Shown: positions 26,569 to 39,783 of the stretch, one piece after another
How the letters are laid out: each line of letters begins with the position of its first letter
How positions within the stretch are numbered: position 1 is the first letter of the stretch
Assembly (NCBI RefSeq): GCF_038806765.1
Contig: NZ_CP152389.1
Span: forward strand, 5,084,001-5,148,000
Length of the DNA: 64,000 nt
Reading direction: 5' to 3'
DNA from: Mucilaginibacter sp. CSA2-8R
GTDB lineage: Bacteria > Bacteroidota > Bacteroidia > Sphingobacteriales > Sphingobacteriaceae
Notes under the pieces: model-generated
The model's input: only the letters and a program-made list of their open reading frames with translations
The model's database searches: none
What the model was told of the DNA's origin: nothing
Position numbers and translations under genes: made by a program

Positions 26569-26611
26569 AAAAAACACCCTCTTGCTATCTGTTAGCAAGA
26601 GGGTGTTTTTT
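26569..26611. terminator. 19-bp hairpin, bidirectional terminator
   Basis: Arms 26569-26587 and 26593-26611 pair perfectly with a 5-nt loop and end in A/T runs on both strands. It lies between converging GH28 and rlmI and touches the rlmI stop codon. Confidence 0.88.
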
Positions 26612-27798
26612 TATATAACCCTGCACAGTAGTCCTTTTAAATACTCTCCTTCGGGAAAAGAAGCGCGTACGGGATGATCCTCGGGTTGACAAAATTGGTA
26701 AATAAACTGTACTTGTTTGCCGGCATCCAGGGCGGCCCAGGCCAATACCTGTTTAAAGGTGTCGATATCCATGGCGCCCGAGCAGGAAAACGTTGCCAGC
26801 AGACCGCCTTTGTTGAGCAACAGCATAGCAATACGGTTTAAATCTTTGTAAGCCCTTGAAGCACGGTCGAGTGCCGAACGCGATGGGGCATATTTAGGCG
26901 GGTCGAGTACAATGATGTCGAACGTTTCGTTTTCTTCTTTAAAGCGACGTAGCTGTTTGTTGACGTCCGACTGTATAGCCCGGTGCTTTCCGGCATCAAG
27001 GCCGTTAAGTTCGATGTTCTTTTTCAGGGTATCCATAGCTAATGCCGAACTGTCTACACTGGTTACCGATGCTGCGCCTTGCTGCAGGCTGTTGAGGGTA
27101 AAGCCCCCGGTATAACAAAAGCAGTCCAGTACCTTTTTGCCTGCTGTATGGTTGGCCAGGATGTGGCGGTTATTGCGCTGGTCGCAGTAAAAACCTGATT
27201 TTTGCCCCTCGGCAATGTTGATGCCGTAGGTTAAGCCATTCTCTTTAACCTCAACCAACTCAGGCGGCGGACTACCGGCTAAAACTTCATTGGTAGTGTC
27301 CAGCCCCTCGTGTGCACGCGAAGAAGCATCGCTCTTATCATAAATGCCCTTAGGTTGCAACAAGCGCTGCAATTCATCAATAATTACACCGATGTTGTTT
27401 TGAATGCCTGAAGTAAGAATCTGTAGCGAGAGATAATCAGCATATTTATCTACAATTAATCCTGGCAGGTAATCGGCCTCACTGAAAATGAGGCGGCAGG
27501 TATTGGTTTGGCCCGATTGCAGCACAAAATTACGGCTTTCAACAGCAGTAGAAACCTTTTGCCTAAACCAGTCATCATTAATCTCAGTATGCTCATCCCA
27601 CTCCAGCAAGCGCAACGCTACGCGCGACTGGTCATTGTAAAAGCCGTAGGCCATAAAGCGGCCCTGTGCATCAATCAGTTTAACCACATCTCCATTGGCA
27701 GGTTTACCCTTTACACGCTCGATAGCGCCCGAAAACACCCAGGGGTGGCGTTGCAGCACTGCTTTTTCTTTTCCTTTTTTCAGGATCACTTCAACCAT
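26611..27798 (-). CDS. rlmI: 23S rRNA (cytosine-C5) methyltransferase RlmI-like
   Basis: A 395-residue SAM-dependent methyltransferase with an N-terminal PUA domain (about residues 1-75, with RHPWVFSGAIERV). An RlmI-like central domain follows (LIFSEADYLPGLIVDKY, about 104-120), then a Rossmann methyltransferase domain with SAM motif VLDCFCYTGGFTLNSL (about 222-237) and catalytic region VLDPPKYAPSR (about 293-303). It methylates a cytosine in 23S rRNA in the family prototype. TATCTTTG on the minus strand at 27804-27811 ends 5 bp before the ATG, so the transcript may be nearly leaderless. Confidence 0.92.
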   Translation of the reverse strand: MVEVILKKGKEKAVLQRHPWVFSGAIERVKGKPANGDVVKLIDAQGRFMAYGFYNDQSRVALRLLEWDEHTEINDDWFRQKVSTAVESRNFVLQSGQTNTCRLIFSEADYLPGLIVDKYADYLSLQILTSGIQNNIGVIIDELQRLLQPKGIYDKSDASSRAHEGLDTTNEVLAGSPPPELVEVKENGLTYGINIAEGQKSGFYCDQRNNRHILANHTAGKKVLDCFCYTGGFTLNSLQQGAASVTSVDSSALAMDTLKKNIELNGLDAGKHRAIQSDVNKQLRRFKEENETFDIIVLDPPKYAPSRSALDRASRAYKDLNRIAMLLLNKGGLLATFSCSGAMDIDTFKQVLAWAALDAGKQVQFIYQFCQPEDHPVRASFPEGEYLKGLLCRVI

Positions 27799-27803
27799 AA
27801 CGG

Positions 27804-27811
27804 CAAAGATA
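27804..27811 (-). promoter_or_regulatory. -7 element TATCTTTG of rlmI
   Basis: An exact TAnnTTTG match on the minus strand, ending 5 bp upstream of the rlmI ATG. No -33 box is seen at the right distance. Confidence 0.4.
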
Positions 27812-27899
27812 CGCAGCCTTAGCTAATTCACTTTGATTGCAATAGGTTTTTTGCTGATAGAAGAAGTCGTAAGTAACAGTTTTGGGAAAAGGCAGCGCT

Positions 27900-29072
27900 T
27901 TACTTGTCCTGAACACACCGGAAGCCGAGGTGTTCCATCCCGCTGTCCTCTGTACTTTTCATCCGTCGGGCAACCCTGAAACCACTGCAATAACTGTTAT
28001 TGCACAAAAAAGAGCCGCCGCGTATTACCCGTTTAACAGCCTGGGGCTCCTGCGGATCATAACTACGGTCAGGGCCTTGCGGATTTTTAACCGGACTATG
28101 CTGGTAGTAAGTTTCGTTATAATAATCGTGGCACCACTCCCACACGTTGCCGGCCATATCGTAAAGACCGTAGCCGTTGGGTTTAAAAGACTTTACCGGG
28201 GCAGCGCGGTAAAATTTGTCGTGTAGGGTGTTTTTGTACGGAAAATTGCCCTCCCAAATATTGGCTTTTGCCAGTCCGGCGGTTACCGGTTCGTTTCCCC
28301 ATGGATAGATTTTATTGGCTTGCCCGCCGCGGGCGGCCCATTCCCATTCGGCCTCGGTTGGCAGGCGCTTTCCGGCCCATTTACAGTATGCTTGTGCATC
28401 ATACCACGAAAGTTGTGTTACCGGGTAATTGCCCTTGCCATTAATACTGCTGGCCGGCCCTTGTGGGTGCCGCCAGTTGGCGCCTTTTTGCCAGGTCCAC
28501 CACTGGCTGTAATCATTCAGGTCTACTTCGGTGGCGGTTGGTTTAAAAACCAACGATGCCGCTACCAGCACACTGTCGGGTGGCTTGGGTGTGCCAGGGG
28601 GCAATTGTTTTTTCAGCTCATTCCAATCAGGCTTTTTTTCGGCCGTAGTGATGTAACCGGTAGCCTTTACAAATTCGGCAAACTCTGCATTGGTTACCTC
28701 GGTAGCATCCATCCAAAAACCGGTTATGTCTACCTGGTGCTTTGGGTATTCATCGGCCGAAGCTTCGCGGTTATCGCCGCCCATAGCATACGTGCCGCCA
28801 TTAATCCAAACCATACCGGTATGGCTGGCTAAAGCACCGGCCTGCACATCTTGCGGCTGCTCCAGTTTTACGTTACCAAATCGTGAAGGGATGTTCGACT
28901 CACAGCAGATCACTTTTTTAGGAACGGGAGGTTTAGCAATTTTTGCAGCAGTATTGTTCGGTTTGGATGCGCCTGACTGTTGACAAGCCGGAGTAAAAGC
29001 TATTGCAATAACACCAAAAGTGAATGCGACACTTTTAAGAAAACTAAATTTATCCGGACTGATCAGCTGCAC
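27900..29072 (-). CDS. Formylglycine-generating enzyme (SUMF1-type, exported)
   Basis: Converts the active-site cysteine or serine of sulfatases and some phosphodiesterases to formylglycine. It is 390 residues. An N-terminal hydrophobic segment ending FTPACQQS suggests export and possible lipidation. The FGE domain (about 85-388) contains MVWINGGTYAMGG, QLSWYDAQAYCKWAGKRLPTEAEWEWAARGG (18 of its residues are the family hallmark) and GYGLYDMAGNVWEWC. The catalytic cysteine pair is kept in GGSFLCNNSYCSGFR, with C-x4-C spacing as in human SUMF1. No sulfatase gene lies in the window. It follows the phosphodiesterase genes on the same strand. Confidence 0.9.
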   Translation of the reverse strand: MQLISPDKFSFLKSVAFTFGVIAIAFTPACQQSGASKPNNTAAKIAKPPVPKKVICCESNIPSRFGNVKLEQPQDVQAGALASHTGMVWINGGTYAMGGDNREASADEYPKHQVDITGFWMDATEVTNAEFAEFVKATGYITTAEKKPDWNELKKQLPPGTPKPPDSVLVAASLVFKPTATEVDLNDYSQWWTWQKGANWRHPQGPASSINGKGNYPVTQLSWYDAQAYCKWAGKRLPTEAEWEWAARGGQANKIYPWGNEPVTAGLAKANIWEGNFPYKNTLHDKFYRAAPVKSFKPNGYGLYDMAGNVWEWCHDYYNETYYQHSPVKNPQGPDRSYDPQEPQAVKRVIRGGSFLCNNSYCSGFRVARRMKSTEDSGMEHLGFRCVQDK

Positions 29073-29219
29073 GAGTGCTAAACTAATTATTTATCATGTT
29101 GATAACAATAGCTATTTAATTGCTTAATCACCTTTCATCAAGTTCAACTTTTCAACCGATACCCTAACAATACTTTGATAGACAAAAGCTATACTTGCGT
29201 GACTGTATTATCAATTATC

Positions 29220-30119
29220 TTATTTTACCAATAAATTTGGATAATCAGATATAATACCATCAACACCCAGTTGCTTAAGCACATTTATCTCTTCGGTAGT
29301 GTTCACCGTCCAAGGAATAATTTTGACGTTTTGGTTGTGGCAGTCTTTGACCAAGTCGGCATCTACCAGTTTGTAGGCCGGGCTGTAAACATCAGGCGTA
29401 AAACCTAATTCTTTGAGGTTATCAGCAAGCGTTCCTTTTTCAACCAAGTAAGATGTTTTTACCTGAGGATATTTTTGATGCAGCACCTGTAATGTGCGTT
29501 TATCAAAAGATTGGATAATTACATACGGCGTTATTTTTTTACTTTGAGTAACGGACATCAGCAGGTCTACAAATTTTTCGGGCTCAGGGTTGTAAACGTT
29601 GTCGTTTTTGGGGCTGCTTTTTGTTTCGATGTTATAAAAAACCTGGGGCTTTTTGTTACTTTTTAAGCATTGCTGTACGCTGTCAATAACATCGGCCAGT
29701 AAGGGGATATGCGCTTTAACTTTTTGCTGCTGGGGAAATTTTTCATACAGTTTAGAACCCACATCAAAGCGCGCTATCTTGGCATAGGGCATTTTATAAA
29801 TGGCATAACGATGGGCGTCCTCTTTGGGTATCTCTTTACCTTCTGGTGTTAAAGCAAATACAGGGTTTAAAGCATCATCGTGTGACAGCACAACTTTACC
29901 ATCAGCTGTAATGTGAGTATCCATTTCCAGAGTAGTTACGCCAAGTTTCAGCGCGTTTAGCATAGCGGGAATCGTATTTTCGGGTTGCAGGCCGCGCCCG
30001 CCCCGGTGCGCCTCAGTATCAAACGCCGGAAATGCAGGAGACGGAAATTTCGCTTTTTGTGCCATAACACTCGTGGTAGTTAACAAGCCGGCCAATATTA
30101 AGTAAGCTGATTTTTTCAT
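29220..30119 (-). CDS. Exported glycerophosphodiester phosphodiesterase
   Basis: Hydrolyses glycerophosphodiesters to glycerol 3-phosphate and an alcohol. It is 299 residues with signal peptide MKKSAYLILAGLLTTTSVMAQ, so it is periplasmic or secreted. The GDPD motifs are complete: catalytic His in AHRGGRGLQPENT (about 38-50), metal ligands in LEMDTHITADGKVVLSHDD (Glu and Asp near 64-66, second His near 79), Glu in YNIETK (about 168) and the C-terminal PWTVN and GVDGIISDYP. It lies in the leftward set headed by SusC, behind the exported phosphoesterase. Confidence 0.92.
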   Translation of the reverse strand: MKKSAYLILAGLLTTTSVMAQKAKFPSPAFPAFDTEAHRGGRGLQPENTIPAMLNALKLGVTTLEMDTHITADGKVVLSHDDALNPVFALTPEGKEIPKEDAHRYAIYKMPYAKIARFDVGSKLYEKFPQQQKVKAHIPLLADVIDSVQQCLKSNKKPQVFYNIETKSSPKNDNVYNPEPEKFVDLLMSVTQSKKITPYVIIQSFDKRTLQVLHQKYPQVKTSYLVEKGTLADNLKELGFTPDVYSPAYKLVDADLVKDCHNQNVKIIPWTVNTTEEINVLKQLGVDGIISDYPNLLVK

Positions 30120-30151
30120 TGCAATATAAACGGACTGTTGCCATCCGGTTT

Positions 30152-30201
30152 AAAGTGAGGTGGTTTTTGTTGGGATACCCCATCGGCAACCGCCTCACTT
30201 T
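30152..30201 (-). other. Hairpin between phosphoesterase and GDPD genes
   Basis: Arms 30152-30165 and 30188-30201 pair over 14 bp with one G-U wobble and a 22-nt loop. On the minus strand no U-tract follows. It may be a weak terminator, a processing site or an mRNA stabiliser inside the operon. Confidence 0.45.
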
Positions 30202-30241
30202 GTTCCGAATAGCAACAGGGCTATCAGTTAATCTTTAATAT

Positions 30242-31639
30242 TTAAACGCTCATCTCGCGTTCATACTTGTCGCCAAAACGATCAGTGGCCACCACTTTAA
30301 CATTTTTAATACCGTTGTCCAGTTGTGCCGCAAAAATATGGTCTGTATTCCTTGGCTCTGGGAAGGTACGCCCAGCCGGCAGTTTATCGCCCAGGTACAG
30401 TTTTACCGCCATGGGATCCATGCCCAGCTCATTTTTCAAGATACCTTTATATTTTCCGTCCAGCCAGTATTCAACCTTCCATTGCGGGTCCCAGTTGTAA
30501 ACGTTGGCTACCAGTTTTTTCTGCTCATCAATATGTAACGATAGCTGGTTGTTTTTATCGCTGTCCATTGATTTGTAATACCATTTCAGCTGGTTGCCCT
30601 CAACGCTGTAAACACCGTAACCACGTGGCGTGCCATCTTCGCAAATTGGGCCGGTCCACCAGGCACCGCATACGGTACCATGGTTGTGCTCGTAAATGTT
30701 GCCATCTATATGGTTGGCATTGTAATGCGTATGCCCCGACATGATATGCACATTTTTAAACGGCCTTAACAGTTTGTACAAATCTTGGTTGTTTTTTACT
30801 TGGTCGTAAACCGGTATGTGCAGACAAATAATGAGCAGGTCATCCTTTTTAACGTACTGCAAATCTTTAGCTAGCCAGTTCAATTGCTCTTCTGTTATAT
30901 AACCGTCGTACTCACGCTCTTTGCCTAAATAGCGTACATCGTCCATCATTACATAATGTGCACGGCCGCGGTTAAACGAATAGTATGTGGGGCCATACGT
31001 CTTCTTGAAAGTACGATCGGAGGTTTCGTCGCCACCCTGGCGGTAATCCATATCATGATTGCCTAAGCCCTGAAAAAACGGAATACCTATTTGTTTAACG
31101 GCTGCGTTATAATCGGCAAAAAGCTCCAGATTATCCCAGGCCAAATCGCCCACACCAATGCCATGCAGCAATTCGCCGCTCAGGCCGGCAACCGTTTTCT
31201 GCGTATCCGGTACCGATTGCGCCATCATTTTTTCAACGTCCTTTTTGTTGCGTACCTGCGGGTCGGCCCAGACAATAAAGGTGTGTTTGCTGTCATTCTT
31301 TTTTAGAGGCACCAGGTTAAAATCAAAGCTACTGCCTTCGCTTAAGCGGCGATAATGTTTAGCCAGATATTGCTCGTGCGGAAATTCATAGCCTGAAGGG
31401 ATGCTGATAAACACAAACTCAGCTTTGGCATCTGGTGTAAGCTGATAAGTGCCGTCTTTGCCAGTTGGCACAATGCTAAAGCCGTCTGATATCAGCACGT
31501 TGGCCAGCGGTTTACTGCCGGCAGTTACCTTACCTGTAACGGTAGCTGCACGTTTGCTGCGGGCAAAAGTATTTCTAAATGTTAAAGTTAAAGCACCCGT
31601 TAATACCAGGGAACGTTGTATGAATAATCTGCGGTTCAT
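30242..31639 (-). CDS. Exported calcineurin-like phosphoesterase with N- and C-terminal accessory domains
   Basis: A 465-residue dinuclear-metal phosphoesterase. The N-terminus MNRRLFIQRSLVLTGALTL has an RR pair before a hydrophobic stretch and could be a Tat or Sec signal. Domains are an N-terminal carboxypeptidase-like beta sandwich (about 32-100, VTGKVTAGSKPLANVLI), the catalytic domain with WADPQV (about 126), GVGDLAWDN (about 162), GNHDMDYR (about 193), LHIPVYD (about 273) and SGHTHYN (about 297), and a C-terminal beta domain with WKVEYWLDG. Pfam MetallophosN/MetallophosC-type organisation. Substrate unknown; the neighbours point to phosphodiesters. Confidence 0.88.
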   Translation of the reverse strand: MNRRLFIQRSLVLTGALTLTFRNTFARSKRAATVTGKVTAGSKPLANVLISDGFSIVPTGKDGTYQLTPDAKAEFVFISIPSGYEFPHEQYLAKHYRRLSEGSSFDFNLVPLKKNDSKHTFIVWADPQVRNKKDVEKMMAQSVPDTQKTVAGLSGELLHGIGVGDLAWDNLELFADYNAAVKQIGIPFFQGLGNHDMDYRQGGDETSDRTFKKTYGPTYYSFNRGRAHYVMMDDVRYLGKEREYDGYITEEQLNWLAKDLQYVKKDDLLIICLHIPVYDQVKNNQDLYKLLRPFKNVHIMSGHTHYNANHIDGNIYEHNHGTVCGAWWTGPICEDGTPRGYGVYSVEGNQLKWYYKSMDSDKNNQLSLHIDEQKKLVANVYNWDPQWKVEYWLDGKYKGILKNELGMDPMAVKLYLGDKLPAGRTFPEPRNTDHIFAAQLDNGIKNVKVVATDRFGDKYEREMSV

Positions 31640-31710
31640 ATGTTTTTAACAAAAAAAGGGTACTGTATAAGATATCTAAGCAGCACCCCACATAACTTGG
31701 ATTGTAATAA

Positions 31711-33303
31711 TTAATCTTTTATACTCGTTGGTGCAACAGCCGGTGTTGTGCCCGATGATGCCGGGAATTCACCCTCAATTTCGTTAATTGCTGAGGTTTT
31801 AGTAAGCTGCACGATAGATTGTGTGCGGGCTTTAACCCACCTGCCTAAACGCGCGTTATAAATACCACCCAGCTTGTAAAAGAAGCCCTGATCTGCCGGG
31901 GTAGTGTAAGTGAGGCAAAGTGTATTTGATCCTTGTCTATAATAAGGTTGTGATTGTAGGGTGATTGGATTAACCACATCATAAAAATCTGTGTTAGTTA
32001 TTTTATAACCTTGTACCGGAGGACCAGCTAAAAACAAATTACCACCGGTGCTTACAAACATTACATCAATCGGTTCGCTATCTTTAGTTACATTGGTACC
32101 GTTAAACACGGCCATACCAAACGCGTTACCACTATTGGCAAAAAAACCGCCATTTCGTATTCCAAAGCCATCGCCGTCAGTGGTTGTGTAATTAAATGAT
32201 CTTATCCAGTTAGATGAAGCCATGCTAGTTGATCCGGAGCCATTGATCATTTTACCTGAACCACCTACATAAAAGAAAGTGCCTTTTTTTGCTGTACCTG
32301 ATGTTAAATTAAATTTAAAAGTACGGAACGTTGTAGCTGGGGTTACAGAACCACCACCGGTAGCCCAGCCGTTAGCTGGAAAGTTTCCTGGGGTGGATGC
32401 GCCTGCGTTATTACAAACTACTACCGAAAACGGTGTTGCCGCAAAATCAATGTCGCGTGTGGCCAGCAATTGTATATATTCATAGTTTCCATCGCTTCCT
32501 GATACGTCATTAATGAACCCGCTGATAACAATTGGTGTAAGTGATATGGTAGAGCTAAGCACTTGCGCATCATCTGCCTTGCGCATCCTGATTTGCGGAA
32601 CCAATCTGCCGTCAGCTGCCTTAGTGTTAAATACTATACCGTAAAAGTTTGCACTCACTGGCAGGGTATTATTTGCAAATACAGCGTTAGGCTCAGTATG
32701 TAAGGTAATATTATCAAAGCCGTCATTTACAACTCTATCACCAGCGTACTTATCAGTAGGCTTAGGTATAGGATCAAAACCACCTTTAACTATGGCTACT
32801 AACGTGCTTTCATAATTAAGCGGATTAGCAAGGATGTCACTGCTGTTAACCCGGTTAGGAGCTATAGTCTTACCGCTTGCTATTTTAGTAATGGCGCTTG
32901 TAGAAATATTTTTAATTTGTAATAGGTTATCAGCCCTGGTTAATATACCGCCAGTCACGGTTACAATTACCGAATCTCCTGACACGTAGTTAGTAGCAGC
33001 AGCACCAATAGGTATAGCAATACCCCTCAGTTGCGCCAACCTGCGCTTATCTTGCAGTAATAAATAGCCGGGGGGCAGATTACCTTGCGCATAATCAGAT
33101 ATTACTACACCTGTTATTTTTTCACAACCGTACATGTTTTCTTTCGTCAGGTTAATATCCGATCCCTCATAAAGGTCGCGCAGGTCATAGAGTGAAATGT
33201 ATGGACTAACTGTAACCGGAATATAATCACTGTCACGCTTACAGCCCATCCAAGCTGTACCTACTACCAACAGTGCGGCAATATAGAGTATTGTCTTTTT
33301 CAT
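31711..33303 (-). CDS. DUF5689 lipoprotein with lamin-tail-like C-terminal part
   Basis: A 530-residue probable lipoprotein (hydrophobic leader ending WMGCKRD). I chose the ATG at 33303 because it starts the leader; the longer frame to 33339 overlaps the SusD gene. The N-terminal half (about 30-230) contains the DUF5689 pattern, including GVVISDYAQGNLPPGYLLLQD and a paired OB-fold-like layout. The C-terminal half has ISGFINDVSG...YEYIQLLATRDIDFA, similar in outline to lamin-tail domains often linked to secreted nucleases. It is 17 bp after SusD, so it is probably a surface subunit of the SusCD system. Function unknown. Confidence 0.78.
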   Translation of the reverse strand: MKKTILYIAALLVVGTAWMGCKRDSDYIPVTVSPYISLYDLRDLYEGSDINLTKENMYGCEKITGVVISDYAQGNLPPGYLLLQDKRRLAQLRGIAIPIGAAATNYVSGDSVIVTVTGGILTRADNLLQIKNISTSAITKIASGKTIAPNRVNSSDILANPLNYESTLVAIVKGGFDPIPKPTDKYAGDRVVNDGFDNITLHTEPNAVFANNTLPVSANFYGIVFNTKAADGRLVPQIRMRKADDAQVLSSTISLTPIVISGFINDVSGSDGNYEYIQLLATRDIDFAATPFSVVVCNNAGASTPGNFPANGWATGGGSVTPATTFRTFKFNLTSGTAKKGTFFYVGGSGKMINGSGSTSMASSNWIRSFNYTTTDGDGFGIRNGGFFANSGNAFGMAVFNGTNVTKDSEPIDVMFVSTGGNLFLAGPPVQGYKITNTDFYDVVNPITLQSQPYYRQGSNTLCLTYTTPADQGFFYKLGGIYNARLGRWVKARTQSIVQLTKTSAINEIEGEFPASSGTTPAVAPTSIKD

Positions 33304-33320
33304 GTTATTTCGTGATTCAA

Positions 33321-34886
33321 TTATGGTTTTTGCCACCAAACTAATGTATTAATATCATCAGGCCCTTGTGATGCCACAGCATTACTATAACTTGTTGGGC
33401 TTGTTGATTGAGATGCTAACGGATAGTTTAACCTGGCAGGCATTCGGCCGCCATTTATTAAACCGGTACCTTTAGGAAGGAAAGGATGCCCTGTTCTACG
33501 ATATTCAAACCACTGCTGAAAATCGACCAGAAACATGGCATAGTACTTTTGAAGATGGATCGACTCCATTTTGCTGGGTGTGCCTGGTGTGGTGGTGTTT
33601 ATAGGCAAGCTATTATTCCAATCTATATCAGCATCATTAATGTATTTAACTAAAACAGGGTCTGATGTAGATTTGAAATTATTAGGTAGCCAGTAGTTTA
33701 GCGCATCAGCAATACCTTTAGTATAATAGGTTTCGCCTGTACCATTAATCCATCCTTTGGCAGCAGCTTCTGCTAAAATAAAGTCTACCTCTGCACAGTT
33801 CATGATAATACCTGTATAAGGATCGGTTTGTAAAGTGACGCCAGCATTTTGGGCATCAGAATAGAAATAGGCTTGCTTAGTTACTAATGAACCAATATCA
33901 TAACCACTTGGTACACCAACTAAACCAGATGGCCCAGACGCAATACCAAATCGATTATAGTTATTAGTGCCGTATGAGGCTGTAATTCGGGGATCAGACC
34001 AGTTAGTTAAATTTCCAAGAAAGAAGTTGGTGATCGCTGGTGTTCTAAAGTCAACCGCCCTTACGTTGATCATAAATGGTGAAGAGTATACCGCCGTACT
34101 GCTATTAGTTCCATTCCATAAAATTTTCGCGGTATGGGTATTATCCTCCATGATAGGGTAATTGCCTCTATTGGTATCAGCAATTTCTTTTATTTTGGCG
34201 ATTACCTGTGCACTCACTTCCGCTTTACCAGACACACGCAGCAATAATCGCAAATATAGAGAGTTGCCAAACCTGCGCCATTTGCTAACGTCGCCCTGGT
34301 AAACCGGATCACCAGTTTTAACGATTGCGGTTCCTTCGGCTAACAATTTATTAGCCTCTTCCAGCTTGCTAAACAAATCAAGATAGATGTCTTTCTGTTT
34401 ATCATAAACCGGTTGCAAATTGCCTTCTTTACCCTGGTTAGCCTGTGAGTAGGGCACATCACCATAAACATCTGTTAATAGTTCAAATACCCAGGCCTGT
34501 GTAATTAGCGATATCCCTTTGTAAGACGAATTCAAAGATTCAGGCTGATTGGCAATGGTATAAATATCACGCAGATTGGTTAGTTCAGGGTACCAGGCAT
34601 TCCAGGTATAATCTGCCCAAGTACGTCTTACGTCATACCTAAAAACTCTACCTTCTGCATCACTCACATCTACCGTAACCTGCATTAGCTCATTATTAAA
34701 GCCGCGGTTACGAACCATATTAGCTTGTAAAACGTTTACCAACGCCGGCGCTAACAACTGGTTGGCTGTTGTTTTAGATTTACCTATGGGGTCGGTATTT
34801 ACTTCGTTAAAATCTTTTTTACAAGAGATTAAAGTAGTGAATGCCAACAGTATTATATAGCTGGTTATCTTATTTAAAAATTTCAT
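33321..34886 (-). CDS. SusD/RagB-like outer-membrane lipoprotein
   Basis: A surface substrate-binding lipoprotein that acts as lid of the SusC transporter. It is 521 residues with a clear lipobox (TTLISC, Cys at about 22) and the following KKDFNEVNTDP typical of SusD. Helical repeat region: RDIYTIANQPESLNSSYKG then AWVFELLTDVYGDVPYSQA. The C-terminal half has ILAEAAAKGWING and QWFEYRRTGHPFLPKG, as in the SusD-like_2 subgroup. It starts 10 bp after SusC. The ligand is not predictable from sequence; the neighbours suggest a phosphodiester-containing molecule. Confidence 0.93.
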   Translation of the reverse strand: MKFLNKITSYIILLAFTTLISCKKDFNEVNTDPIGKSKTTANQLLAPALVNVLQANMVRNRGFNNELMQVTVDVSDAEGRVFRYDVRRTWADYTWNAWYPELTNLRDIYTIANQPESLNSSYKGISLITQAWVFELLTDVYGDVPYSQANQGKEGNLQPVYDKQKDIYLDLFSKLEEANKLLAEGTAIVKTGDPVYQGDVSKWRRFGNSLYLRLLLRVSGKAEVSAQVIAKIKEIADTNRGNYPIMEDNTHTAKILWNGTNSSTAVYSSPFMINVRAVDFRTPAITNFFLGNLTNWSDPRITASYGTNNYNRFGIASGPSGLVGVPSGYDIGSLVTKQAYFYSDAQNAGVTLQTDPYTGIIMNCAEVDFILAEAAAKGWINGTGETYYTKGIADALNYWLPNNFKSTSDPVLVKYINDADIDWNNSLPINTTTPGTPSKMESIHLQKYYAMFLVDFQQWFEYRRTGHPFLPKGTGLINGGRMPARLNYPLASQSTSPTSYSNAVASQGPDDINTLVWWQKP

Positions 34887-34896
34887 AAATTTCTTT

Positions 34897-37800
34897 TTAT
34901 ATCCCTACAACTAAACGAAATCCGTAACTTCTGGTAGATGGTAACTGGCCAGTTTCAAAGCCCTGAACGATGTCGGTACCGGATAATGTACCAAACTCGG
35001 GATCAAACGCCGGCCAGGGCGACCATATGAATAAGTTCCGTCCGTATATGCCCAAACTAAGCCTGTTAATACCAATCTTCCGTACCAATCTGGTGTCGAA
35101 ATTGTAGGTTAAGTTGGCCTCCCTAAATTTTAAATAATCGGTTTTGAACACACTGCCTTCTGCTTGGTCCGATCCGTAAATTGAGGTATAAAAGCTTTCC
35201 AGGTTTGTGGCTATTACATCATTAGGACGATAGGTTCCATCTGAGTTTTGCACCACCCCATTACCAATAATGCCGTTATAGCGTCCGGGTAATGTAACTT
35301 TTAGCTTACCTAAAGCTGCCATTCTCGAAAAGGTAAGTGAATGCGCTACCGCACCTAATTGTGCGTCAAACAATCCTGACAAGCTAAAACGCTGATAAGT
35401 AAGGGTAGTACCGAAGCTAAACCTGAACTTTGGCGATGTGTTACCTAAATATACCAGCTGGTCGCCGGCTTTGGCATTACCTGAAACAGCATCATAAACA
35501 ATTTGACCATCAGGAGAACGTACAATAGCTCTTCCATATAAATCACCCATACTGCCGCCAACGTTAGCCACAATTGCAGCGCCACCTAAAGGTCCGGTTC
35601 GGAGGACAACTGAACTATCTGCCAGTTCTAAAATCTTGTTGCGATTAGCTGTAAATGTTCCGTTAAGTTGCCAGGTAAACTTTTTAGTTTGAATAGGCGT
35701 TCCGGTAACCGCTATTTCAATACCTTTATTTTGAACGTTACCTACGTTAAATACGGCTACGTTATAACCGGTAGCGCGGTCTACCACCCGGCTTAATATC
35801 TGATTTTTAGTATTGCCTTTATAAACCGCTAAATCAAAGCTCAGCCGGTTGTTAAACATACGCAGTTCCGTACCTAACTCTATAGAAGTTGTTTTTAAAG
35901 GCTTTAAGTTGGGGTTAGGCAATACGTTAGGGTTAGTCATGGCACTATCCGGGTAAATGCCGTTAGATGCAAGCGTGTAATTATAAGCAGTACGGTAAGG
36001 CGTAGTACCACCGCTACCTACCTGCGAGATTGATGCCCTAAGTTTCAGGAAGCTAATATCTGTTGGCAACTTCCAAAAATCAGAAGCAATAAAAGATGCG
36101 CTTGCTGATGGGTAAAAGAAGCCTACATTGTCGGTTCTTAAAGGCGTTGCTAACGTGCTGTTCCAGTCCTGACGGCCGGTTAAATCTAAATACAGATAAT
36201 TCTTTACACTAAAAGATACCAAACCATAAAAACTATTTAACCTGTAACGAGCGGTATCAGGAACGGAGATTAGCGGATTAGCGTTATTGTCCAGGCTAAA
36301 TACCCCCGGTATTACTAAACCGTCGGCCCGAAGCTCTGACTTCTTATACTCATTGCGCATTTCGCTACCACCAATAGATGCGTTCATTTGTATGGATGGC
36401 GTTATTTTTTTGTTATATCTTAACAGGAAATCAGCATTGATTTCGTAAGATTTGACATCTTGTACCCGGTAAGATCCCTGCGCAAACTTGTTTCCGGCAG
36501 CATCCCAAGGCCGCAGCGTTTCGCGAACATCTTTGTTATAGTCGATAGAGCCACGCACCATCAAACTTAAATCATTGGTTATCTTATAGGTGGCCTGTAA
36601 ATTTCCAAGAATGCCGTTTCGGCGTTGTTTATTAATATACTGCTCTGAAATAGCATAGGGGGCTTCAGGATTGGTAGTAGTAATATTTACAAACTGTTGA
36701 TTCTCTTTTCCATTAACCCAATAATCTCTATACCAGTCTGTGTTTACGTTTGGTTGAGCAAACATAAACCAGTACATCAGGGATTGGTTGCCGTAACCGG
36801 TGGCGGGCAAATTATCGCTATTCCGGTTGTTGTAAATGGCCTTTACCTGGATATTTAGCTTTTTGCTGACATCGCTATTGGCAGAAAACGAAATATTAGT
36901 ACGTTTTAAACCTGTATTTGGAGCAATCCAGTTATCATCTCCGTGGCTGGCCGAAAAACGCATACCTACGTTTTTTAAACCACCATCTATACTGATAGAG
37001 TTTAAAGTTTCGAAACCGGTTTTAAAAAAAGATTTAACCGGGTTTTCATAAGCTACCCATGGTGTTCTGGTTAGCCCTCTTGTTTTGGTAGCAGGATCAT
37101 ACTGATAAAAGCTTGTACCACGGTTAAAAGGTGCTCCCCAGCTTGCACTTGTTGCATTAGTGCTTGCACCATCATCCGTTGCTCCGTAAGAGAAGTAATT
37201 TACCCCATTTTGGCCCTGACCATAGTCGCTTTGAATGTCCGGGCTTTTATTTACCGACTCCCAAGTATTATTAGACGTAAGGGTTATGCTCAGCTTCTTT
37301 TTGGCTTTTCCGGATTTGGTAGTAATAATGATGGCTCCGTTTGCCCCGCGCTGGCCGTAAAGTGCCGATGCTCCCGGCCCCTTTAATACAGTTACACTTT
37401 CAATATCATCGGGATTCAAGTCATTTAAGGCTGAACCAAAATCTGCGGGCATAACATCTCCTGATGTTCCATATACACCCCCGGATGAGGCGGCCGTTCT
37501 TCTGGACGAGCTACTGGCTACCACACCATCAATTACGATTAAAGCTTCGTTGTCACCGGTCAGGTTGTTTTCACCACGTAGAATAATTTTGTTTGATCCG
37601 GCAGGGCCACTGTTTCTTACTAGGTTTAAGCCAGCTACTTTTCCGGATAAGGCATCGGTCCAGTTACTGGCAGGGGCTCTGGTAAACGCTGAGGTATCGA
37701 GCTTTGATGCAGAATATCCTAAAGCACGCTCTTCTCTTTTGATACCTAAAGCGGTAACAACAACTTCGTTTAATTGGCTCGATCCACGCTTTAAGCGAAT

Positions 37801-38199
37801 AACAACTTTGCTTTGATTAGCATTGAAAGTACGCGTTTCTGAGGTGTAACCAATATAGCCAATTTGTATTTCGCTGCCGGCAGGTATGGTTGCCGTAAAC
37901 GCACCTTGCGAGTTGGTAATGGTAAGCGAACGTCTTTTACCATTGCTGATGGTAACTCCAATCAGTGGTTCAGAATCGTCGTTATCAATAACAGTACCTT
38001 GTACGGTAACAGTGCGTGGCTGCGTTTGTGCCGTTGCCGTGTGGTAACACAATGCTTGAACGGCAAGTGTAATGATGCAAATAAGCAGTGTGTAGGGGTT
38101 TTTGCTTAATGACGTTTTGGGGTTTAACCGGTTCTGCTTTGCAGCCTGACCAGATAATTGCCAAAGCCTGCTTATGCCATAAGTAAAGCTTTTGTTCAT
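34897..38199 (-). CDS. SusC/RagA TonB-dependent outer-membrane transporter
   Basis: A 1100-residue TonB-dependent importer. After a long N-terminal leader (hydrophobic core NPYTLLICIITLAVQALCYHT near 35-55) come a carboxypeptidase-like domain (about 62-145, with VTVQGTVIDNDDSEPLIGV), the SusC-type plug with LNEVVVTALGIKREERALGY and GPGASALYGQRGANGAIIITTKSG, and a 22-strand barrel ending in YGFRLVVGI. It heads the probable operon SusC-SusD-DUF5689-phosphoesterase-GDPD. No sigma/anti-sigma pair or HTCS regulator is adjacent. A Pho-box-like direct repeat lies upstream. Confidence 0.95.
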   Translation of the reverse strand: MNKSFTYGISRLWQLSGQAAKQNRLNPKTSLSKNPYTLLICIITLAVQALCYHTATAQTQPRTVTVQGTVIDNDDSEPLIGVTISNGKRRSLTITNSQGAFTATIPAGSEIQIGYIGYTSETRTFNANQSKVVIRLKRGSSQLNEVVVTALGIKREERALGYSASKLDTSAFTRAPASNWTDALSGKVAGLNLVRNSGPAGSNKIILRGENNLTGDNEALIVIDGVVASSSSRRTAASSGGVYGTSGDVMPADFGSALNDLNPDDIESVTVLKGPGASALYGQRGANGAIIITTKSGKAKKKLSITLTSNNTWESVNKSPDIQSDYGQGQNGVNYFSYGATDDGASTNATSASWGAPFNRGTSFYQYDPATKTRGLTRTPWVAYENPVKSFFKTGFETLNSISIDGGLKNVGMRFSASHGDDNWIAPNTGLKRTNISFSANSDVSKKLNIQVKAIYNNRNSDNLPATGYGNQSLMYWFMFAQPNVNTDWYRDYWVNGKENQQFVNITTTNPEAPYAISEQYINKQRRNGILGNLQATYKITNDLSLMVRGSIDYNKDVRETLRPWDAAGNKFAQGSYRVQDVKSYEINADFLLRYNKKITPSIQMNASIGGSEMRNEYKKSELRADGLVIPGVFSLDNNANPLISVPDTARYRLNSFYGLVSFSVKNYLYLDLTGRQDWNSTLATPLRTDNVGFFYPSASASFIASDFWKLPTDISFLKLRASISQVGSGGTTPYRTAYNYTLASNGIYPDSAMTNPNVLPNPNLKPLKTTSIELGTELRMFNNRLSFDLAVYKGNTKNQILSRVVDRATGYNVAVFNVGNVQNKGIEIAVTGTPIQTKKFTWQLNGTFTANRNKILELADSSVVLRTGPLGGAAIVANVGGSMGDLYGRAIVRSPDGQIVYDAVSGNAKAGDQLVYLGNTSPKFRFSFGTTLTYQRFSLSGLFDAQLGAVAHSLTFSRMAALGKLKVTLPGRYNGIIGNGVVQNSDGTYRPNDVIATNLESFYTSIYGSDQAEGSVFKTDYLKFREANLTYNFDTRLVRKIGINRLSLGIYGRNLFIWSPWPAFDPEFGTLSGTDIVQGFETGQLPSTRSYGFRLVVGI

Positions 38200-38577
38200 A
38201 AAAGGGATTTTATTGTAGTTACAGTAAGTGTGCCCGGCATTGTTAAATACCGCTGCAAAGGTGGGTATGTGCTGTTAAGCGAAAGTTAAGCACACATCAT
38301 GCTTGCATTATCACTTTGTCAATAAAAGGCCCTGAAATTGAAAATATGTAAAAATTTAGATACAAGTACAATTATCCCTTCAAAACATTAGCGAAAGCTT
38401 TTTATACTTAGGTGGTGTGATTGATATAATAAGAAAGCTTTTTTAATATAATTTTTATAGACAATTAACAATAACCCAGTATTAACTTAACCTGCACAAA
38501 AAAATATTCTGCACTTTACTTTTTACCTCACTGATAATTTCGGATTTTCGCGGGCGTTAATTGGGGATATAATCGAT
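38200..38577. other. Divergent spacer between susC and the serine hydrolase (no gene)
   Basis: This 378-bp A/T-rich region holds the susC promoter candidate (38256-38291). TTAAC boxes at 38465, 38482 and 38487 lie before the rightward serine hydrolase gene, with a TAATTTCG element at 38535-38542. I see no open reading frame or RNA gene. Confidence 0.5.
38256..38291 (-). promoter_or_regulatory. susC promoter candidate with Pho-box-like direct repeat
   Basis: On the minus strand GCTTAAC-TTTC-GCTTAAC (38291-38274) is a perfect 7-bp direct repeat with 11-bp period. After a 10-bp gap comes CACCTTTG (38263-38256), a -7 element with one mismatch to TAnnTTTG. Position and periodicity match OmpR-family sites of the PhoB/PhoP type that replace a -35 box. 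About 57 bp separate it from the susC ATG. Confidence 0.5.
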
Positions 38578-39783
38578 ATGATGTTTTTGTATAAGTATGT
38601 TTTGGCAGGTGTATTTGCTGCTGTGGTAATGTCATCGTGCTCGCACACTTCAAAAAAAGGTGTTGATAAATCGGACAAGCCTTTTGAGCCGCAAAAACTA
38701 TTAAAATATAACCCTAAGGATGCCGACGAAAAGATTGATGCCTTTATGCAGCAGTTGCATAAAAAAAATGCCTTTAACGGCAATGTACTGGTAGCCAAAA
38801 AAGGGAAGATTTTGTACGAAGGCTCGTTTGGCTGGGCTAATCACCTCACCCGCGACAGCCTGAAAATAGAGTCGAAATTTGAACTGGCCTCGGTATCTAA
38901 AACCATGACCGGTACAGCTATTATGCAGCTATGGGAAGAAGGCAAAATTAAACTCGACCAGGATGTGCGCGATTTTTACCCTAACTTCCCTTACGCCGGG
39001 GTAACCATCCGCTTGCTGCTCACCCACCGCTCGGGTATGATGAACTATGTTTATTTTGTTGACGGTTTGTACCGCTCGCAGCACCTTGACCAGCGAAAAG
39101 GAATTACCAACCAGCAGGTAATGGAGCTGATTGCCAAATACAAGCCGGCTCCGTTTAATAAACCTAATGCCCGGTTTTTGTATAACAACTCTAACTATAT
39201 GGTGCTGGGTTCTATTATTGAAAAAGTTACTGGTGTGCCTTATGCACAGTATGTACAGGAGCACATTTTTAAACCTGCCGGCATGACCCATACTGCCGTA
39301 TACTCTAAAGCGGTATACGACAAAATTCCGGTTGATGTAGTAGGGCACGACCGTAACAGCTGGCGCTACTCTGTTGCGCAGAATTTTTTAGATGGGCCGG
39401 TAGGCGATAAAGGCATTTATAGCACAGTTGGCGATTTGTACCTGTTTGACCAGGCTTTAAAAGCTGGTAGATTAATTAAAGCCAGTACCCAAGACTCAGC
39501 CTATACCGCTCATGTTACCCCATTGATACGCGGGCATTTCAGCTACGGGTATGGCTGGCGTATATTTGAAAGTAAAAACGAAAAGGTGGTTTACCATACC
39601 GGCTGGTGGCATGGTTTCAGGCATATATTTTTACGTGATTTAAAAAACGATGTGACTATAGTTTTGTTAGGAAACTTAGTGAACGGCAGCTTGCTGCATT
39701 TAGACGAATTGTTTAAAATTACCGGGATGCCTGTTGTACGCAAAGGTGCTTACACCGGTACCGGCGAAACGGCAGACGATTAA
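38578..39783 (+). CDS. Serine hydrolase, beta-lactamase class C family lipoprotein
   Basis: A 401-residue penicillin-binding-protein/esterase-type hydrolase. The leader MMFLYKYVLAGVFAAVVMSSC ends in a lipobox-like cysteine. The catalytic Ser-x-x-Lys is ASVSKTMTG (about residues 102-110), the second motif is YNN in LYNNSNYMVLG (about 202), and the third is HTG in VYHTGWW (about 340). Members can be D,D-peptidases, esterases or D-amino-acid hydrolases, so the substrate is open. It begins the rightward group of genes and is 48 bp upstream of the YbaB-type gene. Confidence 0.88.
   Translation: MMFLYKYVLAGVFAAVVMSSCSHTSKKGVDKSDKPFEPQKLLKYNPKDADEKIDAFMQQLHKKNAFNGNVLVAKKGKILYEGSFGWANHLTRDSLKIESKFELASVSKTMTGTAIMQLWEEGKIKLDQDVRDFYPNFPYAGVTIRLLLTHRSGMMNYVYFVDGLYRSQHLDQRKGITNQQVMELIAKYKPAPFNKPNARFLYNNSNYMVLGSIIEKVTGVPYAQYVQEHIFKPAGMTHTAVYSKAVYDKIPVDVVGHDRNSWRYSVAQNFLDGPVGDKGIYSTVGDLYLFDQALKAGRLIKASTQDSAYTAHVTPLIRGHFSYGYGWRIFESKNEKVVYHTGWWHGFRHIFLRDLKNDVTIVLLGNLVNGSLLHLDELFKITGMPVVRKGAYTGTGETADD

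Follow-up and report, generated by a model that had tools for sequence, protein, structure and literature searches.

The five minus-strand genes listed in Table 1, which lie in a window of 64,000 nucleotides from the soil bacterium Mucilaginibacter sp. CSA2-8R (the whole stretch of DNA analysed), probably form a phosphate-starvation operon. The organic phosphodiesters that it would capture are most likely glycerophosphodiesters, whether head groups of deacylated phospholipids, oligomers of glycerol phosphate or both. The operon is probably induced by phosphate shortage, because its promoter signal also precedes phosphate genes. As judged from the sequence and the protein families, low phosphate would activate a PhoB-type regulator that binds a TTAAC repeat replacing the -33 element. 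The surface lipoproteins SusD and DUF5689 would then bind the substrate, and SusC would import it with energy from TonB. In the periplasm, a Tat-type exported, GpdQ-like calcineurin-like phosphoesterase (CPE) and a Sec-type exported glycerophosphodiester phosphodiesterase (GDPD) would cleave it to glycerol-3-phosphate (G3P), which may enter the cell via GlpT, the gene of which is present elsewhere in the same genome, or be dephosphorylated.

Table 1. Features of the operon and its putative promoter (window coordinates).
Feature	Position	Strand	Evidence
SusC/RagA TonB-linked outer membrane transporter	34897..38199	-	TIGR04056, 580 bits vs cut-off 368
SusD-like_2 surface lipoprotein (lid)	33321..34886	-	PF12771, 331 bits vs cut-off 27
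DUF5689 lipoprotein	31711..33303	-	PF18942, 69.8 bits vs cut-off 28.6
Calcineurin-like phosphoesterase (CPE), exported, RR-type (Tat-like) N-terminus	30242..31639	-	PF16371, PF00149, PF16370
Exported glycerophosphodiester phosphodiesterase (GDPD)	29220..30119	-	PF03009, 129.3 bits vs cut-off 23.6
Pho-box-like direct repeat TTAAC-N6-TTAAC, 11-bp period	38274..38289	-	Enriched in relatives and before PhoU_div genes
-7 element CACCTTTG, 5/6 specified bases of TAnnTTTG	38256..38263	-	Exactly 10 bp past the repeat

An earlier note on this DNA had described SusC, SusD, DUF5689, CPE and GDPD as following one another on the same strand, and this was borne out, with all five on the minus strand and intergenic gaps of 10, 17, 71 and 122 bp. 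Its claim that glycoside hydrolases are missing held for the eight genes scanned (26611 to 39783), among which neither a glycoside hydrolase or CAZyme nor an ECF sigma factor was found. The N-terminus of SusD, read from the sequence, runs ...LISC|KKDF; SusD scored 20.3 bits against PF14322, below the cut-off of 27, and PF07980 was absent. The mechanical open reading frame of DUF5689 begins with TTG at 33339, but the start at 33303 (MKKTIL) yields the 17-bp gap and a lipoprotein-type signal. MetallophosN, Metallophos and MetallophosC were all above cut-off in the profile scan of the CPE. The GDPD reached none of the NCBIfam equivalogs (for example, 82.9 versus 264), and its closest solved chain is 3ch0 (E 1.2e-63). 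Scans for sigma-70 promoters and terminators returned no more than those of shuffles.

The conservation on which the earlier note made its reading depend was found in relatives: among 76 related full-length loci, which were picked by CPE similarity alone and are mutually related, so that the counts are not independent, 63 carry SusC>SusD>DUF5689>CPE as an unbroken run, which GDPD extends in 48. The gene order is beyond chance, because it recurs across genera. GDPD is absent from the same strand in 16 of the 76 loci; of 11 relatives from the same genus, 4 were found to have it together with the module. A GDSL-type acylhydrolase accompanies 48 loci (two-sequence profile; two representatives confirmed by Pfam). 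In locus L118, a sensor kinase matches the models of PnpS and PhoR but stays short of the cut-off of each; the ORF beside it was rejected as a response regulator, since its sole match, to a 'hypothetical protein' model, is likewise under the cut-off. SusCD pairs are usually linked to glycans, and glycoside hydrolases lie near some relatives' loci (L034 and L140), as would suit an ordinary glycan PUL in which the phosphoesterases are incidental; yet the operon itself carries no CAZyme and its conserved partners are phosphoesterases, which makes that reading very improbable.

Of 68 testable loci in relatives, 57 have the TTAAC repeat, versus 3% of background regions (at 9 or more of 10 letters, 59 of 91 module regions have it, and 10 of 328 in the background), and its enrichment in module promoters appears only at period 11. 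Across spacings of 0 to 40, the -7 element most often lies 10 bp past the repeat (30 of 54 cases), and no other spacing accounts for more than 3. Neither the repeat nor the -7 element (38289..38256) was mentioned in the earlier note. In Mucilaginibacter, the repeat precedes 28 of 30 PhoU_div (PhoU-like) genes, and 25 of the 28 repeat-bearing promoters have the -7 element 10 bp further on. In the PhoU_div regions, periods 8 and 14 also reach 14/30 and 12/30, so that only the module promoters give a clean period test. With no more than one mismatch allowed, the composite pattern has four matches in the present genome versus one in the reversed control: before a PhoU_div gene with a Pit-type transporter, a TonB-receptor-like barrel, a second SusCD cluster carrying three phosphoesterases, and the operon described here. 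The pattern is unspecific at two mismatches (27 versus 17 reversed), and TTAAC-N6-TTAAC alone is weakly specific (46 versus 26 reversed), its match falling within an ORF in 12 of 30 loci fetched.

Counting against the phosphate reading, the repeat was not enriched before PhoX-family (PF05787) genes class-wide (1 of 25, after 5 of 30 loci without a usable start were skipped). Before PstS-like genes it was found in 4 of 19 cases overall and, once the genes were traced back to the starts of their operons, in 7 of 13; it precedes all three PstS genes above cut-off and none of 11 weak binding proteins. A PhoB-like regulator scores below its equivalog cut-off. For its phosphate meaning the repeat therefore depends mainly on the PhoU/Pit genes, the three strong PstS from other families, the PhoB-like regulator and the second SusCD cluster. 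With its 11-bp period, the repeat presumably resembles the PhoP box of Bacillus subtilis. No description of a Bacteroidetes Pho box was found in the open-licence literature, nor was the PhoP box string found in the accessible part of PMC6232261.

Glycerol-3-phosphate genes accompany some of the loci: on the same strand in the fetched flanks, GlpT was found in 15 of the 76, GlpD in 13, GlpK in 8 and GlpF in 8, and of six GlpT candidates scanned, five were above the TIGR00712 cut-off. GlpT of E. coli exchanges G3P for phosphate, so the glp linkage could also mean carbon use, with the operon feeding glycerol and G3P catabolism under the control of glycerol or a sigma/anti-sigma pair instead of phosphate. 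Consistent with this are the glp genes themselves, a DeoR-type regulator upstream of susC in both loci scanned for one, and the same-strand FecR genes of 23 of the 76 loci. However, the repeat is kept in 11 of 15 testable loci with any GlpT, GlpD or GlpK, and in 9 of 11 GlpT loci as in 46 of 53 loci without glp genes, and the window operon carries it with no FecR or glp gene adjoining; carbon scavenging is therefore improbable.

The model of the CPE found its best VIA-align match in GpdQ of Enterobacter aerogenes (3d03; Z 19.9, rmsd 2.7, 215 residues), a likeness of predicted fold at 16% identity that covers CPE residues 119-360 only and leaves extra N- and C-terminal domains outside. Purple acid phosphatases (Z 18.4) and Rv0805 (Z 18.3) follow closely, and PhoD is among the matches (2yeq, Z 16.0); Foldseek alone placed Rv0805 first and GpdQ third, and phmmer returned no match of the CPE to the PDB at E 0.01. 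Among 80 relatives, the first motif (DPQ) and the motifs GNHD and GHTH are present in all 80 and the RR-type N-terminal pattern in 75. For DUF5689 the PDB gave a chance match only, and approximately residues 25-150 were modelled, at low confidence (mean pLDDT 59), as an OB fold that matches those of nucleic-acid-binding proteins (best Z 9.0).

That match would suit nucleic acid scavenging, in which DUF5689 would act as a surface binder of DNA or RNA, SusC would import oligonucleotides and the CPE would cleave them for phosphate. Class-wide, domains of the Endonuclease I, PLD-like or Exo/endonuclease kinds occur in large DUF5689 proteins, and a Riemerella DUF5689 protein is treated among the essentials of natural transformation in the available part of PMC8459023. 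The model is weak, however, and the profile scan found no dedicated nuclease domain in the five operon genes. No role in nucleic acid use is known for GDPD and glp genes. Nucleic acid is distinctly unlikely as the substrate, and is kept as a candidate in view of the fusion of DUF5689 to nuclease-type domains in other proteins.

Glycerol teichoic acids of Gram-positive neighbours, imported and then degraded by an endo-type metallophosphoesterase and the exo-type GDPD, are an unlikely source. SusCD systems suit oligomers, the DUF5689 model resembles an OB fold, PhoD is among the CPE fold matches and G3P genes occur in some relatives; by analogy, the kind of enzyme pair and the phosphate control may be those of PhoD and GlpQ, as far as the consulted parts of PMC7086022 and PMC6232261 describe them. 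Yet GpdQ is a better structural match for the CPE than PhoD is, polymer binding by the operon proteins is hypothetical, and B. subtilis GlpQ halts at glycosylated or alanylated units (PMC7086022, in part). A wider and rather unlikely proposal is that soil Bacteroidota obtain phosphorus by taking up teichoic acid or other polymers of glycerol phosphate via a Pho-controlled SusCD devoted to this, and that DUF5689 would bind phosphodiester polymers at the surface quite generally (teichoic acid in the present operon, DNA where competence and nucleases are concerned).

Among the three substrates proposed in the earlier note, glycerophosphodiesters, small or polymeric, fit best, and nucleic acid suits the operon enzymes less well. 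Its broader suggestion of phosphodiester scavenging gains from the conserved order, the glp genes of some relatives, the two exported phosphodiesterase-type enzymes and the promoter common to phosphate genes. With a phosphodiester-capturing operon here, phosphate-linked SusCD systems would reach beyond Flavobacterium into Mucilaginibacter, Pedobacter and relatives and be connected with glycerol-3-phosphate metabolism, and DUF5689 would gain a testable role. TTAAC-N6-TTAAC-N10-TAnnTTTG is a candidate phosphate promoter signature with which Bacteroidota genomes may be scanned for phosphorus genes; the composite pattern alone led to the second phosphoesterase-bearing SusCD cluster.

No description of the SusCD-DUF5689-CPE-GDPD gene set was found in the open-licence literature. 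In Riemerella, the DUF5689 protein RA0C_RS04920 has a gene number adjoining RA0C_RS04915, which is placed in the outer membrane and bears a carboxypeptidase regulatory-like domain; it differs in its link to natural transformation and its second domain, DUF5017 (PMC8459023, accessible part). In B. subtilis, the phosphodiesterase PhoD and the GDPD-type GlpQ are under PhoPR control (PMC7086022 and PMC6232261, as far as available), yet these Gram-positive enzymes act on the cell's own wall under phosphate limitation. PhoD also aligns more poorly to the CPE than GpdQ does. To our knowledge, SusCD and DUF5689 are absent from that system.

Among the closest known systems is PUSI of Flavobacterium johnsoniae, which confirms the earlier note's statement on phosphate-linked SusCD complexes in plant-associated Flavobacterium. 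According to the part of PMC8115612 consulted, its SusCD-type pair is accompanied by two phosphodiesterases that are exported, pf00149 and pf16670 (phosphoinositide phospholipase C and CpdA in that paper's description); the system is contrasted with CAZyme-bearing PULs, was proposed for phosphodiesters and is strongly induced on phosphate depletion. PusD1 of PUSI is pf07980/pf14322 whereas the SusD here is PF12771, and PUSI has an ECF sigma factor whereas none lies beside this operon; DUF5689 and GDPD set the present operon apart, and the induction of PUSI was measured while this operon is known from sequence. Common to this phosphate utilisation system (PUS) and the present operon are the SusC/SusD pair and, co-located with it in place of CAZymes, the predicted exported phosphodiesterase-type enzymes.

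The window sequence and curated profiles bear out the five consecutive minus-strand genes described in the earlier note, with its positions and gaps: SusC, SusD, DUF5689, an exported phosphoesterase (CPE), identified by curated profile as a three-domain calcineurin-like protein, and an exported glycerophosphodiester phosphodiesterase (GDPD). Read by eye, the N-termini of SusD (..LISC/KKDF) and DUF5689 (..WMGC/KRDSD) suggest lipoproteins, the CPE start MNRRLFIQRS suggests a twin-arginine type, and that of GDPD suggests a Sec signal. Together with the gene families, these signals would imply capture at the cell surface, import driven by TonB and cleavage in the periplasm. An FGE-sulfatase-type protein lies 147 bp downstream of GDPD, and in one relative (L033) a homologue directly follows CPE. 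Elsewhere in the window, one segment has a G+C content of 36-37%, against 41-47% in adjoining 2-kb blocks.

Coordinates and context of the features discussed (window positions unless stated)
Feature	Position	Strand	Context
SusC	38199..34897	minus	operon
SusD	34886..33321	minus	operon
DUF5689	33303..31711	minus	operon
CPE	31639..30242	minus	operon
GDPD	30119..29220	minus	operon
FGE-sulfatase-type protein	27900-29072	minus	
Low-G+C segment	48001-52000		
Repeat TTAACTTTCGCTTAAC	38289..38274	minus	end 74 bp ahead of susC start codon
-7 element CACCTTTG		minus	10 bp downstream of TTAACTTTCGCTTAAC
Composite site			host genome, upstream of the SusC-SusD-DUF5689-CPE-GDPD operon
Composite site			host genome, upstream of PhoU_div and PHO4/Pit-type transporter
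Composite site			host genome, upstream of PF13620/OMP_b-brl_4 barrel resembling TonB receptor
Composite site			host genome, upstream of ECF-like and FecR-like ORFs (called by sequence) heading second SusCD cluster
Second SusCD cluster (L268)	G000:C1:4808000-4824500		outside window
PhoB-like response regulator	L121:7262-8027	minus	

The earlier note had read this gene set as a possible phosphodiester-scavenging system, and its order is conserved. Among 36 same-genus relatives searched, 11 carry a close CPE (≥46% identity); SusC, SusD and DUF5689 share its cluster in all 11, CPE stands in front of the cluster in five, and GDPD was seen in four, the GDPD search having covered the extra 13-kb stretches at most in part. 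Of three more distant CPE relatives (34-35% identity), one lies in SusC-SusD-CPE with GDPD upstream (L043) and one in SusC-SusD-CPE plus a GDSL lipase (L044), and for the third neither SusC nor SusD was matched among the neighbours (L045). A wider scan by CPE alignment confirmed at least 587 relatives, the closest among the matches listed (95%) being in a Mucilaginibacter MAG. The best 80 of these, mostly from Pedobacter and Mucilaginibacter but also Daejeonella, Sediminibacterium, Flavihumibacter, Rufibacter, Pontibacter and others, were taken on; five share contigs, judging by length, with the same-genus set, and 75 of the 80 CPE starts carry an RR-type motif (simple pattern, no predictor). 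In the 76 of the 80 with full flanks, same-strand neighbours included SusD (75), SusC (74), DUF5689 (71), GDPD (60), GDSL-type acylhydrolase (48) and FecR (23). The exact order SusC>SusD>DUF5689>CPE occurred in 63 of the 76, with GDPD next in 48, and SusC>SusD with CPE and GDPD formed a single run in 59. As the loci were picked by CPE only, the neighbours are an independent result, the species nonetheless being related. In L160, L208 and L209, GDPD or DUF5689 appears as two adjacent ORFs, perhaps frameshifts or duplications.

Most of these loci share a putative promoter repeat, TTAAC-N6-TTAAC, with an 11-bp period. Of the best 80 of at least 587, 68 had a testable upstream region (≥80 bp; 12 dropped), and 57 of the 68 carry the repeat at ≥9/10 letters. 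At the same stringency it was found in 59 of 91 module regions versus 10 of 328 background regions (Fisher P value 1e-37, an underestimate given the non-independence of related species), and repeats with periods of 8-10 and 12-14 in just 0-8% of module regions. The -7 element (TAnnTTTG; ≥5/6) lies exactly 10 bp past the repeat in 30 of 54 cases, with at most three at any other distance from 0 to 40. In the control sets, the repeat precedes 28 of 30 PhoU_div genes in Mucilaginibacter (-7 element at 10 bp in 25 of the 28), all three strong PstS genes, 4 of 19 PstS-like genes overall, none of 11 weak binding proteins and just 1 of 25 PhoX-family genes class-wide; when operon starts of PstS-like genes were found by walking, it was present in 7 of 13.

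In the host genome (one 5.34-Mb contig), the composite pattern TTAAC-N6-TTAAC-N10-TAnnTTTG at ≤1 mismatch has four sites versus one for the reversed control, and at two mismatches 27 versus 17. Immediately upstream of the PhoU_div/Pit site lies a PhoR/PnpS-like kinase, with matches under cut-offs. The second SusCD cluster reads SusC-SusD-Metallophos-Phosphodiest-Exo_endo_phos-esterase, its Phosphodiest gene being a type I phosphodiesterase. Overlapping TTAAC repeats with three half-sites precede the PhoB-like response regulator (TIGR02154 229 bits, under the cut-off of 296). The simple repeat is also found upstream of a choice-of-anchor I protein, which presumably recalls Fjoh_3414 through domain likeness, and of two PF13620 outer membrane barrels (L122 and L123). 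The barrels are of the same type as Fjoh_3841 (pf13620), listed as phosphate-induced in Flavobacterium johnsoniae (PMC8115612).

Several lines of evidence bear on the substrate. The predicted CPE model (pLDDT 78) aligns best with GpdQ (Z 19.9), followed by purple acid phosphatases (18.4) and Rv0805 (18.3), while Foldseek alone ranked Rv0805 first and GpdQ third. Same-strand glp genes among the 76 loci comprise GlpT (15), GlpD (13), GlpK (8) and GlpF (8). By NCBIfam, GlpT was above cut-off in five of six loci checked (L207 slightly under), GlpK exceeded cut-offs in both loci scanned, and GlpD matches in two loci fell under equivalog cut-offs. A DeoR-type regulator lies upstream of susC in both loci scanned for one. 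Two of the five CPE-first loci (genomes G036 and G002) have a PF04185 phosphoesterase two ORFs past DUF5689. The host genome encodes GlpT elsewhere (664 bits; cut-off 632.55) and no PstS above cut-off (60 bits; cut-off 206.6). Taken as a whole, these findings point to phosphodiesters yielding glycerol-3-phosphate. Glycoside hydrolases occur near some relatives (L034 and L140).

A search of 119 genomes from the class matched DUF5689 in 38; the host genome has a single copy, the operon's own. The predicted model of the operon's DUF5689 is poor overall (pLDDT 59). Its better-modelled first ~150 residues match OB folds (best Z 9.0), most of which belong to tRNA synthetases and proteins that bind nucleic acid; for residues 248-513 the match is a Bacteroides DUF4876 protein (4q1z) at Z 7.5. 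The seven large proteins scanned from the DUF5689 set carried Endonuclease I (two), PLD-like (four) or Exo/endonuclease-phosphatase (one) domains, DUF5689 itself not being recovered by Pfam scan at 1e-5 in one PLD-like protein. Such fusions lie at L288, L289, L291, L292, L294 and L296, all in class genomes other than the host's. A DUF5689 protein of Riemerella is linked to natural transformation (PMC8459023). Because of the nuclease-type fusions and this transformation protein, the domain's sequence associations suggest that it accompanies phosphodiester-polymer handling.

Teichoic acid is the boldest candidate substrate, since PhoD and GlpQ act on it in B. subtilis under PhoPR (PMC7086022 and PMC6232261). 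A search of open-licence literature found no description either of these five genes together or of a Pho box in Bacteroidetes. Lidbury and colleagues described the phosphate-induced clusters PUSI to PUSIV of F. johnsoniae, of which PUSI and PUSII carry SusCD-type pairs (PMC8115612). The Mucilaginibacter operon has its logic in common with these clusters, yet compared with PUSI it has another SusD family, adds DUF5689 and GDPD, and is without an ECF factor.
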